From positions 1-44,060 of the forward strand of contig JAHYJE010000030.1 in NCBI GenBank assembly GCA_019429105.1: DNA of 44,060 bases. Reading direction: 5' to 3'. Below the pieces are notes generated by a model. The model had not been told where the DNA came from and did no database searches. It saw only the letters and a list, made by a program, of their open reading frames with translations. This DNA comes from Syntrophobacterales bacterium. Lineage in GTDB: Bacteria > Desulfobacterota > Syntrophia > Syntrophales > UBA5619. Positions within the stretch are counted from its first letter, which is position 1, and every line of letters begins with the position of its first letter. Shown one piece after another: positions 14,608 through 21,695 of this stretch. The position numbers were made by a program, and so were the translations under genes.

Positions 14608-15261
14608 CTATATGATTACGTACTTCTCGATATACCGGAAAACATCCTCCGGCTCGTCTATAACCTGAATAAGGTCGAGATCGTGGGCGGAAATTTTGCC
14701 GGCTGGCAGCATCGTTTCCCGAAGCCAGTCCACAAGCCCCCGCCAGTATTCGCTCCCCATCAGGATAACGGGGAAACTCTTTATCCGTTTCGTCTGGATC
14801 AGGGTCAACGCCTCGAAGAGTTCGTCCATAGTTCCAAAACCGCCGGGCATGATTACATAGGCGACGGAGTACTTGACGAACATGACCTTGCGAATGAAAA
14901 AGTACTTGTAGTCAATACTTACGTTGGCGTAAATATTAGGCTTTTGCTCATAGGGCAGGCGGATGTTCATCCCCACCGACTGCCCGCCGGCCTCCGCCGC
15001 CCCCTTGTTTCCCGCCTCCATCACGCCGGGTCCGCCGCCGGTTATTACGCCAAACCCGCCTTTCGCAAGCAAACCTGCGAGCTTCTCGGCCTTCTCGTAA
15101 TAGACATCGCCGGGCTTCGTTCGGGCCGAGCCGAAAATGCTGACCGCGCGCTTGGCCCCGGTAAGGGTCTCGATGGCATCCACAAACTCCGCCATGATCC
15201 GGAATATGCGCCATGACTCCTCAATGGAGAGGGCATCCACTACATATTGTTTTTCAGCCAT
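14608..15261 (-). CDS. LOG-family (TIGR00730) nucleotide 5'-monophosphate phosphoribohydrolase
   Basis: The 217-residue Rossmann-like protein has both signature motifs of the LOG/lysine-decarboxylase-like family: GGGPGVMEAGNKGA at 75-88 and PGGFGTMDE at 139-147. Members release the base from nucleoside monophosphates (cytokinin-type riboside monophosphates or AMP); many bacterial copies are still annotated as lysine decarboxylase, which is wrong for this motif set. The natural substrate here is unknown. It starts 19 bases after rpsU and is followed by holA, so the three look like one minus-strand transcription unit. Confidence 0.88.
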   Translation of the reverse strand: MAEKQYVVDALSIEESWRIFRIMAEFVDAIETLTGAKRAVSIFGSARTKPGDVYYEKAEKLAGLLAKGGFGVITGGGPGVMEAGNKGAAEAGGQSVGMNIRLPYEQKPNIYANVSIDYKYFFIRKVMFVKYSVAYVIMPGGFGTMDELFEALTLIQTKRIKSFPVILMGSEYWRGLVDWLRETMLPAGKISAHDLDLIQVIDEPEDVFRYIEKYVII

Positions 15262-15724: not shown

Positions 15725-16798
15725 TCACGCCCCTAACTGTTGTAAAATTTCTTTCAGTTTTTTTATAAAAATACCGTTTTCTTCAGGCGTACCGACGGTA
15801 ACGCGCATGAAGTTCTTAATCCTTCCGGGCATATTGAAGTTCTTGACAAGAACTCCTCCCGCTAAGAGTTCGCTGTATATACGATCGGAATCGAAATCGC
15901 AACTAAAAAAAATGAAATTTGCATCGGAACGCCACGGCTTTATCCCGGCTATTGCCAGCAACTCGGCATAAAGCTCCTCCCGCCAGAGGCGAATCTCTTC
16001 TGCCTGTTTCAGGAATACCTCTTCATGATCGAGGTAGAAACCGGCAGCCGCCTGGGAAAGCGCACTGAGATTATAGGGAAGCCGCACCTTGTTTAGCTCG
16101 TAAACCAGTTCGGGGCTGCCGACGAGGAGGCCGAGGCGGGCCGCGGCAAAGCCTATCTTCGACAGGGTGCGAAGAATCACCAGATTATCGTATTTTGCAA
16201 GGAGCGGCAAAAATGTTTGCCCGCAAAAGTTTTGGTACGCCTCGTCAACAACGACAATGCCGGGGAAACTTTCAATGATCGCTGCAATGCGGTCACGGCT
16301 GAAGCAATTTCCGGTGGGATTGTTGGGCGAGGCCAGAAAGGCGAGGGCCGGGGGGTGCGCTTTGCTCTGCGCGCTCATCGCGGCGACGTCAAGATCAAAC
16401 GCGCCGTCGAGCGGGACCTCCACAACCCGGCACCCGGCATTAACCGGAGAGATGCGGTACATAGCAAAAGTCGGCGTCGGAATCATGACCTCAGCCCCCG
16501 GACGGGCCACCGCACTGCAGAGAATCTGAATCAGTTCGTCTGAACCGTTGCCGATAATGACCTGCTCCGGCTTAACGCCGAAACTTTCGGCAAAGCGGCC
16601 AGACAAGCTTGGCGCGCCCGCCTCCGGATAGCGGTTGAGGAAAATTTCCGCAAGCCGGGCCGCAAACTCCGCCCGCAACCCTGCGGAAATCGTCAGCGGA
16701 TTTTCATTCGCATCGAGCTTGACCGGATACCGGGCGTTTTCTACCGGATACGCCTGATGGGCAAGCACCTCTTCCTTGATTACGGATTTTATATCCAT
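15725..16798 (-). CDS. hisC: Histidinol-phosphate aminotransferase
   Basis: The start at ATG 16798 (MDIKSVIKEEVLAHQAYPVE) is chosen; the frame is open to 17011, but the extra N-terminus is only the antisense-shifted reading of the gcvH-like gene. The 357-residue PLP enzyme is a class II/I-beta aminotransferase with KLDANENPLT, GNGSDELIQILC, FLASPNNPTGN at about 160, the VVVDEAYQNF aspartate that contacts the PLP ring, and LRTLSKIGFAAARLG with the Schiff-base lysine (in TLSK). It converts imidazole acetol-phosphate plus glutamate to histidinol-phosphate. It is not in a his operon here: it follows the GcvH-like gene by 49 bases. Confidence 0.93.
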   Translation of the reverse strand: MDIKSVIKEEVLAHQAYPVENARYPVKLDANENPLTISAGLRAEFAARLAEIFLNRYPEAGAPSLSGRFAESFGVKPEQVIIGNGSDELIQILCSAVARPGAEVMIPTPTFAMYRISPVNAGCRVVEVPLDGAFDLDVAAMSAQSKAHPPALAFLASPNNPTGNCFSRDRIAAIIESFPGIVVVDEAYQNFCGQTFLPLLAKYDNLVILRTLSKIGFAAARLGLLVGSPELVYELNKVRLPYNLSALSQAAAGFYLDHEEVFLKQAEEIRLWREELYAELLAIAGIKPWRSDANFIFFSCDFDSDRIYSELLAGGVLVKNFNMPGRIKNFMRVTVGTPEENGIFIKKLKEILQQLGA

Positions 16799-16847
16799 TG
16801 CGTCTTGTTTTTCCAATTCTGCGGCTGTTTTGAGCCGATAACGCCGG

Positions 16848-17246
16848 CTAATCGAGATCGCCCTCCTGGAGCACAAAATCCTGGTAAGCCGCGGCATCGA
16901 GGAGATCGTCCAGTTCTGACTGATCCTCCATCTCCACCACCAGCAGCCAGCCGGTATCATAGGGATCGCTGTTGATAACGCCCGCATCGTCGGTAATATC
17001 GTCATTGACATTCATCACAACGCCGCTTACCGGGGCTATCAGGTCAATTGTGACCCCGGAAGATTCAATGCTCCCGAACGGCTCGTTCCATTCGACGTAC
17101 GAGTCCGTTTCGGGAAGATCCAGCGAAACAATCTCTCCCAGTTTATCCTGGCCATGATCCGTAAGACCGATCGTTGCCAGATCACCATCCACCCGTACCC
17201 AGAAATGCTCGCGACTGTACAGCAGATCATCCGGAAATATTTTCAT
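16848..17246 (-). CDS. GcvH-like protein lacking the lipoyl-attachment lysine
   Basis: The 132-residue protein has the size and fold pattern of the glycine-cleavage H protein: YSREHFWVRVDGDLATIGLTDHGQDKLGEIVSLDLPE at the N-terminus and APVSGVVMNVND after the hairpin. In true H proteins the turn reads ES-V-K-A with the lipoylated Lys; here it reads ESSGVTID, with Gly64 (codon GGG) where Lys should be. The rest of the barrel and the acidic C-terminus (GWLLVVEMEDQSELDDLL) are kept, so it is not a decayed gene but probably a non-lipoylated paralogue. AGGATG precedes the start. No gcvT or gcvP is near; neighbours are an M24 peptidase and hisC. Function unknown. Confidence 0.88.
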   Translation of the reverse strand: MKIFPDDLLYSREHFWVRVDGDLATIGLTDHGQDKLGEIVSLDLPETDSYVEWNEPFGSIESSGVTIDLIAPVSGVVMNVNDDITDDAGVINSDPYDTGWLLVVEMEDQSELDDLLDAAAYQDFVLQEGDLD

Positions 17247-17315: not shown

Positions 17316-18392
17316 CTAAAGCTCCACAAGACCAACGCCCGGGGTAGTCAAAACCTCGCAGCTATCCTTCCCCACAAGCGCCATATCCTCGATCCTGATG
17401 CCCCATTCCCCGGGGAAATAAACCCCCGGCTCGACCGTAACCACCATCCCGGCCTCCAAGATTTCCGCTCTGCCCGCCGACAGCCGGGGCGGCTCGTGAA
17501 TCTCCAGCCCCACGCCATGACCTGTGCCATGGGAAAAATACCGGGCAAGCCCGTTCTCAGCGAGAAAAGATCGGGCAACTTCGTCTATCTCGCCGCAGGA
17601 AACGCCCGCCCGGATTGCCCCGAGAGCGCGGTCATGAGCCTCCCTAACGAGCTGGTAAGCCTCCCGCTGTTCGGGCGAGGGAGAACCGACACAAAAAGTC
17701 CGCGTCTCATCCGAATGGTATCCGTTAACAACCGCGCCATAATCGATCAGGACAAAATCCCCGGCAGCCACCCTGCGCCTTCCCGGGGTTGCGTGGGGAA
17801 GGGCCGCATCCGGTCCCGTCGCGACAATCGTCTCGAAGGACATCCTTTCCGCGCCGCCCCGACGCATCCGGTATTCAAGCTCGTAGGCGAGCTCCGCTTC
17901 CGTGACGCCCGGTTTAATCAAACTAATTACATCTGTCAATGCTTTTTCTGCTACCCGGATTGCCTTTTTTATCTCGCCCACTTCGGCATCGTCCTTGACG
18001 GCCCGCAGTAAATCGAGGCTGCTGCCCAAGGGCTGAAGCGTTGCCCGCGGCAGCGAATCCCGCAGTCGCAGATATTCTCCATAGGTAACGACTGAAGACT
18101 CAAAACCTATGCAAATGGCGCCCCGCTTTTGAAAAACGGCGGATATTGCCTCTGTCCGGTTTTTGAACTCGCTTATTTCCAGATTCTTTGTCTCAAGTCC
18201 AGCCTGCGTTATATAACGACCATCCACCAGCAGGGTCGTCCAGTCAGGGCCAAGCAGCAGCGCCCCGTCGCCGCCGGTAAACCCGGTCAGATAACGGATA
18301 TTGCTTTCGTCGAAAATAATCAGACAATCCGCTTCCGCAAGGCTGCGAAGACGCCCTGCTCGCTTTTTATAGACATCCGGTTCAGGCTGCAT
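17316..18392 (-). CDS. Xaa-Pro aminopeptidase family protein (M24)
   Basis: The 358-residue protein has an N-terminal creatinase-like domain (NIRYLTGFTGGDGALLLG) and a C-terminal pita-bread catalytic domain. All five di-metal ligands are visible: Asp217 (LIDYGA), Asp228 (YHSDETR), His292 (HGTGHGVG), Glu321 (VTVEPGVY) and Glu335 (GIRIEDM). It should remove an N-terminal residue ahead of proline in the cytoplasm using Mn or Co. The length fits the short PepQ/YpdF-type bacterial enzymes. Its start overlaps the TPR gene's end by 11 bases, so it is co-translated with it; the GcvH-like gene follows after 69 bases. Confidence 0.92.
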   Translation of the reverse strand: MQPEPDVYKKRAGRLRSLAEADCLIIFDESNIRYLTGFTGGDGALLLGPDWTTLLVDGRYITQAGLETKNLEISEFKNRTEAISAVFQKRGAICIGFESSVVTYGEYLRLRDSLPRATLQPLGSSLDLLRAVKDDAEVGEIKKAIRVAEKALTDVISLIKPGVTEAELAYELEYRMRRGGAERMSFETIVATGPDAALPHATPGRRRVAAGDFVLIDYGAVVNGYHSDETRTFCVGSPSPEQREAYQLVREAHDRALGAIRAGVSCGEIDEVARSFLAENGLARYFSHGTGHGVGLEIHEPPRLSAGRAEILEAGMVVTVEPGVYFPGEWGIRIEDMALVGKDSCEVLTTPGVGLVEL

Positions 18393-19062
18393 GGCGACAT
18401 AAATTCCCTATATTTTCCAGCCAGCGCTCAAGCTCAATTATGACGCCCGCATTTTTTTGCCCGCCCGCCTGCTTGCCAAGACGGGCGCGGACATCCTGCA
18501 GCAGCGCCCCCGCCCGCTCGTTTTGGGGATCGCGACCGGTTATCTTCTCCAGCATCTCTTCAGCCATCGGGAGATGGCCCTGGCGGATATAAAGCTCGGC
18601 CAGGGTCACTGTCCCAAAATCGGGGAACGTGTCAGAGTTTTCCCCCTCCGGCTCCTCTCGTTCATAGCCCTCCGCTTCGGCAAGCGCCCCTATTTCCTTC
18701 AGTCTATCTGCCGAATCGAGCGCCGGAGCCGAGGCCGGATTCAGGGCGGTGAACTTTCGATAAAACAGCTCCGCTTCGTCTGCGAGCCCTTTTTTTGTGT
18801 AAAGATCGCCCATGCAGGCATAGAGGCGGGAAAGGCCGGACAGGATGTCCTCCATTTCGCCAAGCAGATCGCGGGCCTCGTCTATGCGCCCCTGCTGCAG
18901 CCAGACGCGGCAAATCGCAATCCGGGCATCGAGATCATCGGGAATCCTTTTCAGCCTTGCCTGCGCCAGATTAAGCACGACCTGCGACTCGTCGCGCTCG
19001 AAATAGGGCTCCATTTCGGCAAGAAACGACCTTCGTCCCTGGTTGCTATTCTCGTTATTCAT
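18382..19062 (-). CDS. TPR-repeat protein of unknown function
   Basis: The 226-residue soluble protein has no signal peptide. It shows tetratricopeptide-like helical pairs: VVLNLAQARLKRIPDDLDARI, VWLQQGRIDEARDLL, LYACMGDLYTKKGLADEAELFYRKFTALNP, and TLAELYIRQGHLPMAEEMLEKITGRDPQN. It is likely a scaffold or partner-binding protein. Its 3' end overlaps the aminopeptidase start by 11 bases; it is the first gene of the TPR, M24 peptidase, GcvH-like and hisC series. A TTGACA lies upstream at 19168-19163 on the minus strand, but no good -10 box goes with it. Confidence 0.8.
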   Translation of the reverse strand: MNNENSNQGRRSFLAEMEPYFERDESQVVLNLAQARLKRIPDDLDARIAICRVWLQQGRIDEARDLLGEMEDILSGLSRLYACMGDLYTKKGLADEAELFYRKFTALNPASAPALDSADRLKEIGALAEAEGYEREEPEGENSDTFPDFGTVTLAELYIRQGHLPMAEEMLEKITGRDPQNERAGALLQDVRARLGKQAGGQKNAGVIIELERWLENIGNLCRHAA

Positions 19063-20240: not shown

Positions 20241-20260
20241 ATTAGTGGCTGCCGACAATT
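20241..20260. repeat. Degenerate half of the GGGGACAGCCACTAAT palindrome at the hipA stop
   Basis: ATTAGTGGCTG followed by CCGACAATT matches one arm of the palindromes at 24825 and 25390 (ATTAGTGGCTGTCCCCAATT) with a few changes in the centre. On the minus strand it encodes the last HipA residues (SIVGSH) and the TAA stop. Confidence 0.5.
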
Positions 20261-21453
20261 GAGCACGCGGCCAGTCCGGTTTCCCAAGCCGCGAGCATTT
20301 TCCCTGCAACGTCCCGAAAAACCGGGCGGTCTTCTGCATATTGCCGCACATCCGTTCTCGTCTGACCAACTGCTCCCAATACGGCGTCGAAGATTTCCCG
20401 GATCGTCCGCTGGGACAAACCGCAGTGGACGACGCCGAAATTGCGCAACTTGGCGCCTGGCCACCACTTTTTCGATCCGCCCAGCGACAGGGCCGGGATA
20501 TCCCGAGGGAGGTAGGCGGCCGTAGTCACTATATCGTAGATCGGCGCAAGGCGAATATCGCCGCCGGTCTCATCATCATAAATAATGCCGTAGTTTTTCA
20601 GGTGCGCATCCCCGTTTCGCAGCGCCGTCGAAAGAACAAGCGATTGGAAAAAGGCCTCCTGTGCGCCAGCACGGTGCTGCGGCGATACGAACTGGGCAAT
20701 GGACCGAGCAATCCGCTCGTAGGTGCTGTCGTATTTACGATCCGCACCGAGTCCCTGCAGGACGCACATGTCCTCGAAACCAAAGCATTTTCCATCCGCA
20801 CCGATGTCGAAGCGCTTCATAACGAAGAGACGCCCGTCGTCTGTGAGGTGAAATTCCGGCGTCTGCAGGCCGGAGCGCCCGGCTGCAAGCATGCAAAAGT
20901 ATTCGTTCGCCGCCAACTGGGGATAATCGTCGCCCCACGATTTCACAACATAAGAGGAGGAGCGGAACGTAACCCTGTCCCGGAGGTCGATCATAGCCTT
21001 TGGCTGAACGCCGGAGATGCCGGACCGAAGGAGAAACCGCGCCATAAGCTCTCGGAAAAGTTCTGCCGTATCGGGATATTTGAGGATAGACTCTAACTCC
21101 GCCGGCTTCGGCAAGGGCCCCCCGGCAGCTTCAGGAAACGGCTCGCCCTCCGACGACACGAAGCGGTTTCGACCTATCTGGTAGCCCCCGAGGATCTTCA
21201 GAAGGGAGATATCGTCCGTCCGGGCGATCTTGGCGATCGCCTGCCGGATGGCGATCAGCATAGCGCCCTCAGGAAGATTCATCTGAAAAATCGGATGCAG
21301 GGCGCTTTCCGTCCAACTCTGCAGGCGGACGGGCATGGTCAGGGAAACCACCGGCGAGGACGCCGCATCGGGATTATAGGCAAACACGTACGGATCCGGC
21401 CCCTCCAAGACGCCGACATTTTTCCCATGCATCCAGACATTCAGCCTGCTCAT
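20242..21453 (-). CDS. hipA: HipA-family serine/threonine kinase toxin
   Basis: The 403-residue kinase has the N-terminal HipA domain and the catalytic C-terminal fold. Visible sites are the Ser147 loop SGISGVQPKA (the autophosphorylated serine region), the ATP-contacting lysine in SYVVKSW (Lys171), FVMKRFD, the catalytic NGDAHLKN with Asp282, and the metal Asp307 in LAPIYDIV. In E. coli HipA phosphorylates glutamyl-tRNA synthetase and causes dormancy; the target here is not known. It overlaps hipB by 4 bases (ATGA). Its C-terminal SIVGSH and stop fall in a degenerate copy of the GGGGACAGCCACTAAT palindrome, so the natural end may have been altered. Confidence 0.93.
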   Translation of the reverse strand: MSRLNVWMHGKNVGVLEGPDPYVFAYNPDAASSPVVSLTMPVRLQSWTESALHPIFQMNLPEGAMLIAIRQAIAKIARTDDISLLKILGGYQIGRNRFVSSEGEPFPEAAGGPLPKPAELESILKYPDTAELFRELMARFLLRSGISGVQPKAMIDLRDRVTFRSSSYVVKSWGDDYPQLAANEYFCMLAAGRSGLQTPEFHLTDDGRLFVMKRFDIGADGKCFGFEDMCVLQGLGADRKYDSTYERIARSIAQFVSPQHRAGAQEAFFQSLVLSTALRNGDAHLKNYGIIYDDETGGDIRLAPIYDIVTTAAYLPRDIPALSLGGSKKWWPGAKLRNFGVVHCGLSQRTIREIFDAVLGAVGQTRTDVRQYAEDRPVFRDVAGKMLAAWETGLAACSIVGSH

Positions 21454-21695
21454 GGCGCCCTGTCCTTTTTCAATTCTTCCAAGGTCGGCGGAGCGCCCCG
21501 AGAACGAACATTAAACTCCAAGTCGAGAAAATCCAGCACCCGAAAAACCTTCCGAATACCGATTTCCGGAATCACGCCGCCTTCCAGCCGCCCCAAGGAG
21601 GCGCGCCCAATTCCGACCGCTTTTGCAACCTCCGCCTGGGTTAGTCGCCGTTTTTTTCTTGCCTCCCGAATTGAGCGACCCAGTACAAACAGCAT
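21450..21695 (-). CDS. hipB: HipB-family XRE antitoxin
   Basis: The 81-residue protein is one Cro/CI helix-turn-helix: LGRSIREARKKRRLTQAEVAKAVGIGRASLGRLEGG (about residues 5-40). A short C-terminal tail (NVRSRGAPPTLEELKKDRAP) probably contacts the toxin. It should neutralise HipA and repress the operon. AAGGGG precedes the ATG. The 3' end overlaps hipA by ATGA, the usual coupling for this pair. A TATAAT box and an 18-base near-palindrome lie upstream and fit autoregulation. Confidence 0.93.
   Translation of the reverse strand: MLFVLGRSIREARKKRRLTQAEVAKAVGIGRASLGRLEGGVIPEIGIRKVFRVLDFLDLEFNVRSRGAPPTLEELKKDRAP

Follow-up and report, generated by a model that had tools for sequence, protein, structure and literature searches.

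The gcvH-like gene in the 44,060-nucleotide stretch of Syntrophales DNA analysed here (contig JAHYJE010000030.1 of assembly GCA_019429105.1; hereafter, the window) encodes a protein with the fold of the glycine cleavage system H-protein, but with glycine at position 64, where the lipoyl lysine should be. It belongs to a Syntrophales family of H-proteins, here termed H1, in which the lysine has been lost at least six times and whose lysine-less members have remained under strong purifying selection. Our preferred explanation, to which we give a probability of roughly two in three, is that H1 was ancestrally a dedicated lipoyl/octanoyl carrier that also had a lipoate-independent protein-binding role, with the latter alone being left in the window lineage.

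The H-protein fold of the window protein

The window protein passes the curated cut-offs for GcvH, i.e. those of PF01597 GCV_H (E 5.4e-35, 120 bits against 22.2), NCBIfam PRK01202 (138 bits against 117) and TIGR00527 (124.5 bits against 115.85), so that standard annotation would name it GcvH. An AlphaFold model built from an alignment of 76 homologues (pLDDT 90.1, superseding a model from a shallower alignment with pLDDT 72.6) has the hybrid barrel-sandwich fold of H-proteins; Foldseek gave TM-scores of 0.87-0.93 with the pea, Thermus and E. coli H-proteins, the value for the pea protein (1htp) being 0.93. An earlier, sequence-only reading of this DNA, which had placed a glycine at the lipoyl site of an otherwise intact fold, was thus correct on both counts: residue 64 is encoded by GGG and lies in the hairpin motif EPFGSIES-S-G64-VTIDLIAPVSG. 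The lipoyl lysine of the ES-x-K motif is replaced by glycine both in the window protein and in that of its genus-mate. Only two lysines are present, K2 and K35, and with none from residue 36 to 132 we reject a shifted lysine arising from misalignment; there is no cysteine anywhere in the 132 residues and no lysine in the lipoyl hairpin. The window protein is GcvH by homology, but not by the lipoyl lysine that defines GcvH.

Table 1. Features of the window in the region of the gcvH-like gene
Feature	Position	Strand	Basis or remark
TIGR00730 (LOG-like) Rossmann-fold protein gene, farther downstream in the conserved cluster	14608..15261	-	synteny
hisC-like class I/II aminotransferase gene, downstream of gcvH	15725..16798	-	PF00155; ORF with internal ATG start
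gcvH-hisC gap, 49 bp	16799..16847	-	site of the ~840 bp LipM/LplA-like ligase gene in most relatives
gcvH-like gene, H-protein fold without lipoyl lysine	16848..17246	-	ORF, 132 aa, ATG start
Codon 64, GGG (Gly), lipoyl-lysine site	17055..17057	-	first base 17057, last base 17055
M24 (Xaa-Pro) peptidase gene, next gene upstream of gcvH	17316..18392	-	PF00557, E 1.9e-76; synteny
TPR protein gene, first co-directional gene of the cluster	18382..19062	-	PF14559; synteny

We define H1 as the Syntrophales operon H-protein, by monophyly and by synteny with the M24-gcvH-(lipM)-hisC cluster, and both the gene tree and the gene order place the window protein within it. Within the order Syntrophales, represented by Syntrophus, Smithella and MAGs akin to them, 149 relatives were surveyed; most have an H1 orthologue, with 44-89% identity. 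In the gene tree, H1 is split with support of 100/99 from the GcvP-linked H-proteins, two of which were included (from G086 and G100), and genomes bearing GcvP have a second H-protein beside gcvP (e.g. at G023 C9:118861, G038 C13:85658 and G086 C57:16294). H1 is therefore distinct from the H-protein of the glycine cleavage system.

The usual gene order in Syntrophales is TPR protein, M24 peptidase, gcvH, LipM/LplA-like ligase, hisC and LOG-like protein (Table 1). The co-directionality of the window gene with those for the TPR protein, the M24 peptidase and HisC had been pointed out before; what had been overlooked is that most orthologues keep the lysine and that the gene missing before hisC is the ligase gene. 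The latter adjoins H1 at 109 of the 127 scorable orthologous loci and is absent from 18, including the window, in whose gcvH-hisC gap no remnant of it is apparent. Its product is a member of the lipoate-ligase/octanoyltransferase family, putatively acting by LipM-type transfer or LplA-type ligation, and has a CF..PS.YE motif that we take to resemble that of LipM. PADLOC gave no match in the cluster, for which we reject a role as a defence system. Elsewhere in the window (20242-21695, minus strand) lies a possible toxin-antitoxin pair, in which one ORF (403 aa) resembles HipA and the other a small HipB-like protein with an HTH.

Loss of Lys64 and of the lipoylation machinery

Lysine is present at site 64 in 117 of 128 Syntrophales H1 orthologues, and the 11 that have lost it have six different residues in its place. 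Glycine occurs in the window protein and in its genus-mate (G001), where it is encoded by GGC in a protein that is 89% identical; arginine is found in G030, G106 and G040, as well as in G046, where it is accompanied by an inserted residue; asparagine in G038 and in G054, a single-contig genome of 3,179,300 bp; aspartate in G003, a MAG labelled S. aciditrophicus SulCav_AS07-7; alanine in G060; and serine in G065. The gene tree requires at least six changes of Lys64, at least five of them forced by supported branches. The shared glycine with a different codon and the independent substitutions in other lineages lead us to reject both a sequencing or assembly error and a lone mutation, either of which would have undone the sequence-only reading. 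The non-Syntrophales loci that were read from the named collection all have the lysine.

In three orthologues (in G026, G036 and G058) an insertion makes the hairpin one residue longer, but the lysine is kept, and they were scored as Lys-bearing; at these loci (L178, L162 and L161, respectively) the insertion displaces the lysine relative to the conserved glutamate. A separate observation concerns a subclade of the window's own family without the ligase gene (L005-L012), in which EWNEPFG replaces ER/QDEPFG at gcvH residues 52-54. This change beside the hairpin, which is found also in members of the subclade that still have the lysine, may mark a switch away from lipoylation.

Loss of the lysine is associated with loss of the adjacent ligase gene, which is absent from 9 of 11 Lys-less loci compared with 9 of 116 Lys-bearing loci (Fisher p 1e-7, 127 scorable loci). 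To allow for relatedness, irreversible-loss likelihood models were fitted on a tree inferred after removal of the hairpin columns; dependent loss was favoured over independent loss (LRT 13.3, df 2, p 0.0013), the rate of lysine loss being ~11-fold higher under the dependent model once the ligase gene is gone. Independent-pairs tests, for which supported branches supply at most three usable pairs, gave no significance. Among the 102 genomes with complete data, the lysine is lost in 7 of 15 without LipA versus 4 of 87 with it (p 8e-5), and in 9 of 22 without GcvP versus 2 of 80 with it (p 9e-6); neither p value allows for relatedness, and both are influenced in part by draft genomes. Most of the genomes are draft MAGs, for which calls of absence are uncertain at below 95% completeness.

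The window genome assembly (G000; 3.10 Mb, scored as 100% complete) gave no profile match for LipA, for the catalytic domain of LplA/LipB/LipM (PF21948), for GcvP (PF02347), for GcvT (PF01571) or for a 2-oxoacid dehydrogenase E2, within the limits of profile searches, which could miss very divergent enzymes; control genomes gave matches for all five profiles. The earlier remark that gcvT and gcvP are not near the gene was therefore an understatement, since neither was found across the whole genome. A second, ordinary gcvH, for which a search had been recommended, is not among the PF01597 matches either; the remaining matches are a biotinyl-type domain protein and, from a cluster encoding a membrane complex, two GcvH-like domains. 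The only strong candidate for an L-protein (C41:9233-10603) scores 367 bits against a dihydrolipoamide dehydrogenase cut-off of 409 bits. The window genome thus has no known route of lipoylation and no known client that we could find, and salvage of external lipoate is rejected for it on the same searches, which found no LplA/LipB-type catalytic domain. We regard it as almost certain that H1 is not lipoylated in this organism.

The two other GcvH-like domain proteins (L002:1309-2004 and L003:1249-2040, on contig C9:12832-14350) are encoded beside an NrfD-like membrane subunit, and the first consists of an HmcD-like N-terminal segment fused to the GcvH domain. Neither domain has a clear ES-x-K motif, a lysine occurring one position later in L002; the proteins resemble GcvH_rel_desulf at scores below its cut-off and could be subunits of a respiratory membrane complex. 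The genome of the genus-mate, which has no LipA or lipoate ligase, matched the 2-oxoacid dehydrogenase acyltransferase domain weakly, in a split alignment within one 334-aa frame (G001:C94:9341-9979).

Loss of the lysine and of the machinery do not coincide in every genome. Two Lys-less H1 loci, L191 (G038:C1:156761-157147) and L179 (G106:C80:3409-3795), are in genomes that encode LipA and LplA-type enzymes, as well as GcvP and a separate H-protein for it, and two further genomes with Lys-less H1 (G003 and G030) keep LipB-LipA and a 2-oxoacid dehydrogenase. These exceptions imply that loss of the lysine concerns the carrier role of H1 rather than lipoate in general. In G045 (97% complete) and in several less complete genomes, the machinery was not found and the lysine is kept.

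Selection on lysine-less H1 and competing explanations

Pairs of Lys-less H1 sequences have dN/dS values of 0.036-0.060, no higher than those of Lys-bearing pairs (0.07-0.20, at small dS), and on these values we reject a pseudogene. For the pair formed by the window genome and its genus-mate, dN is 0.059 in gcvH and 0.19 in the adjacent M24 gene, with dS ~1 for both, i.e. gcvH is ~three-fold more constrained than its neighbour. Lys-bearing H1 has 23 columns with conservation of 97% or more, and among these column 64 alone collapses in the Lys-less set; four other near-invariant columns change in one or two Lys-less sequences, mostly conservatively. Glu61 and Gly75, at -3 and +11 relative to the lipoyl site, are presumably recognition determinants for lipoyltransferases on the H-protein, but are invariant in 11/11 Lys-less H1 sequences, implying that their conservation is not due to lipoylation alone. 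H1 is also retained in 12 of the 14 surveyed genomes in which neither LipA nor an LplA-type enzyme was detected. No orthologue was detected in 8 of 110 surveyed genomes (G051, G073, G022, G031, G037, G052, G082 and G103), from which it appears that the function of H1 is dispensable in some lineages.

These observations suggest the following scheme. Ancestral H1 would have been a substrate of the LipM/LplA-like octanoyl/lipoyl transferase encoded directly downstream, with the group borne on Lys64, as the synteny and the ES-x-K motif indicate. As far as profile searches can tell, the window lineage has since lost LipA, the ligase gene, its 2-oxoacid dehydrogenases and the glycine cleavage system; Lys64 has been replaced, and H1 has stayed under strong purifying selection. 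Selection of this strength on a Lys-less protein suggests that it still has a function needing its folded surface, but not lipoate, and it is very probable that H1 has a selected function of this kind; its most likely mode would be that of a regulatory or structural subunit that binds another protein. Such a function was probably, though with less assurance, already present in the Lys-bearing orthologues. The more general proposition, that in the H-proteins of this clade a lipoate-independent role as a binding or regulatory subunit, perhaps of the M24 peptidase next door or of some other conserved enzyme, predates the loss of lipoylation, with the carrier role being secondary and sheddable, such that Lys-less H1 proteins isolate the second function, seems to us evenly poised.

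As to a binding partner, the M24 gene is directly upstream of gcvH at all 11 Lys-less loci, including that of G040, where it still adjoins gcvH though hisC and the ligase gene are both gone. The M24 peptidase is a candidate because its gene is the only linked one that is constant in every Lys-less genome; this is an argument from gene linkage, and we consider the assignment doubtful.

The alternative that fares best, albeit an improbable one, is that H1 became functionless when the pathway was lost and is in early decay, too little time having passed for its ORF to be broken. The lysine has indeed been lost where the ligase and the pathway have been lost, and in two of the genomes without H1 (G051 and G073), which gave no match for LipA, LplA-type enzymes or GcvP, the gene is gone altogether. 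Decay is, however, contradicted by dN/dS values of 0.036-0.06 at dS ~1, and the intact ORFs, the greater constraint on gcvH than on the M24 gene and the absence of any other collapsed near-invariant column also speak against it.

The sequence-only reading had proposed that a conserved, non-lipoylated H-like protein would be either a different kind of carrier or a regulatory subunit. Conservation in the lysine's absence is supported, with loss in at least six lineages, dN/dS of 0.04-0.06 and lipoylation enzymes not found in the genome, but the two proposed roles fare differently. A carrier with a different group attached elsewhere than at Lys64 would account for the kept lipoyl-hairpin fold and the invariance of Glu61 and Gly75; we nevertheless think it very unlikely, since the substitutes Gly, Asp, Ala, Arg, Asn and Ser have no reactive group in common and are not themselves conserved, and the hairpin offers no alternative lysine or cysteine. 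A binding or regulatory role is the better fit, with a partner that is at present only a candidate. Similarly improbable is that H1 is a dedicated partner, as an apo-scaffold or chaperone, of LipA, of the ligase or of a 2-oxoacid dehydrogenase E2: although LipA and LplA-type enzymes bind H-protein in solved complexes (8ugo and 3a7a), no such partner was found in the window genome, nor in three others with Lys-less H1 (G046, G054 and G065), which contradicts the proposal for these genomes, barring a highly divergent partner. Least likely of all is that the gene is kept for an operon (co-translation) or RNA-level role, as the constant M24-gcvH order and the position of gcvH between co-directional genes might suggest, because selection acts on the amino acids (low dN at dS ~1).

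Relation to known H-protein systems

H-proteins are usually treated, and annotated, as mere lipoate arms. One that is kept after its lipoyl site, ligase, LipA and known clients have gone is a natural separation-of-function experiment, and the Syntrophales clade makes a role of the H-protein beyond lipoate a testable question, including in culture, as Syntrophus aciditrophicus appears to carry the variant, if G054 is strain SB. The open-access literature, to which our search was confined (subscription papers being outside its scope), yielded no description of a Lys-less GcvH and, for S. aciditrophicus, no account of either GcvH or lipoate.

Among GcvH homologues that NCBI curates as other than ordinary GcvH, chlamydial TIGR03077 (not_gcvH) and NF045810 (GcvH_rel_desulf) do not include the window protein, which scores 69.1 bits against a cut-off of 144.05 for the former and 40.8 against 150 for the latter. 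The GcvH-L protein of SirTM/macrodomain operons (5a35) resembles it in being an H-fold outside the glycine cleavage system, but is a weaker structural match (TM 0.75, 23% identity), and we recognised no macrodomain or sirtuin gene beside the window gcvH. LbpA of the sHdr sulfur-oxidation system is likewise homologous to GcvH without serving glycine cleavage, and keeps the lysine in all 95 aligned sequences (PMC6067878); it is encoded with hdr-like genes, whereas H1 lies beside those for the TPR protein, the M24 peptidase and HisC and in the window has no lysine, so the window protein is not an LbpA.

A parallel to the Lys-bearing proteins is the LipM-GcvH-LipL relay of Bacillus subtilis, in which LipM is described as GcvH-specific (PMC10332631); Lys-bearing Syntrophales H1 genes likewise adjoin a LipM/LplA-like gene, as expected of a carrier that its product modifies. 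The window genome, which has lost the ligase gene as well as the acceptor lysine, falls outside relays of this type. With GcvH itself (PF01597, TIGR00527) the window protein shares fold, length, the cut-offs passed and the conserved residues other than the lysine, but it differs in having no lipoyl lysine and in belonging to a genome in which P, T and E2 partners and lipoylation enzymes were not found. The presence of gcvH thus implies neither lipoylation nor glycine cleavage.
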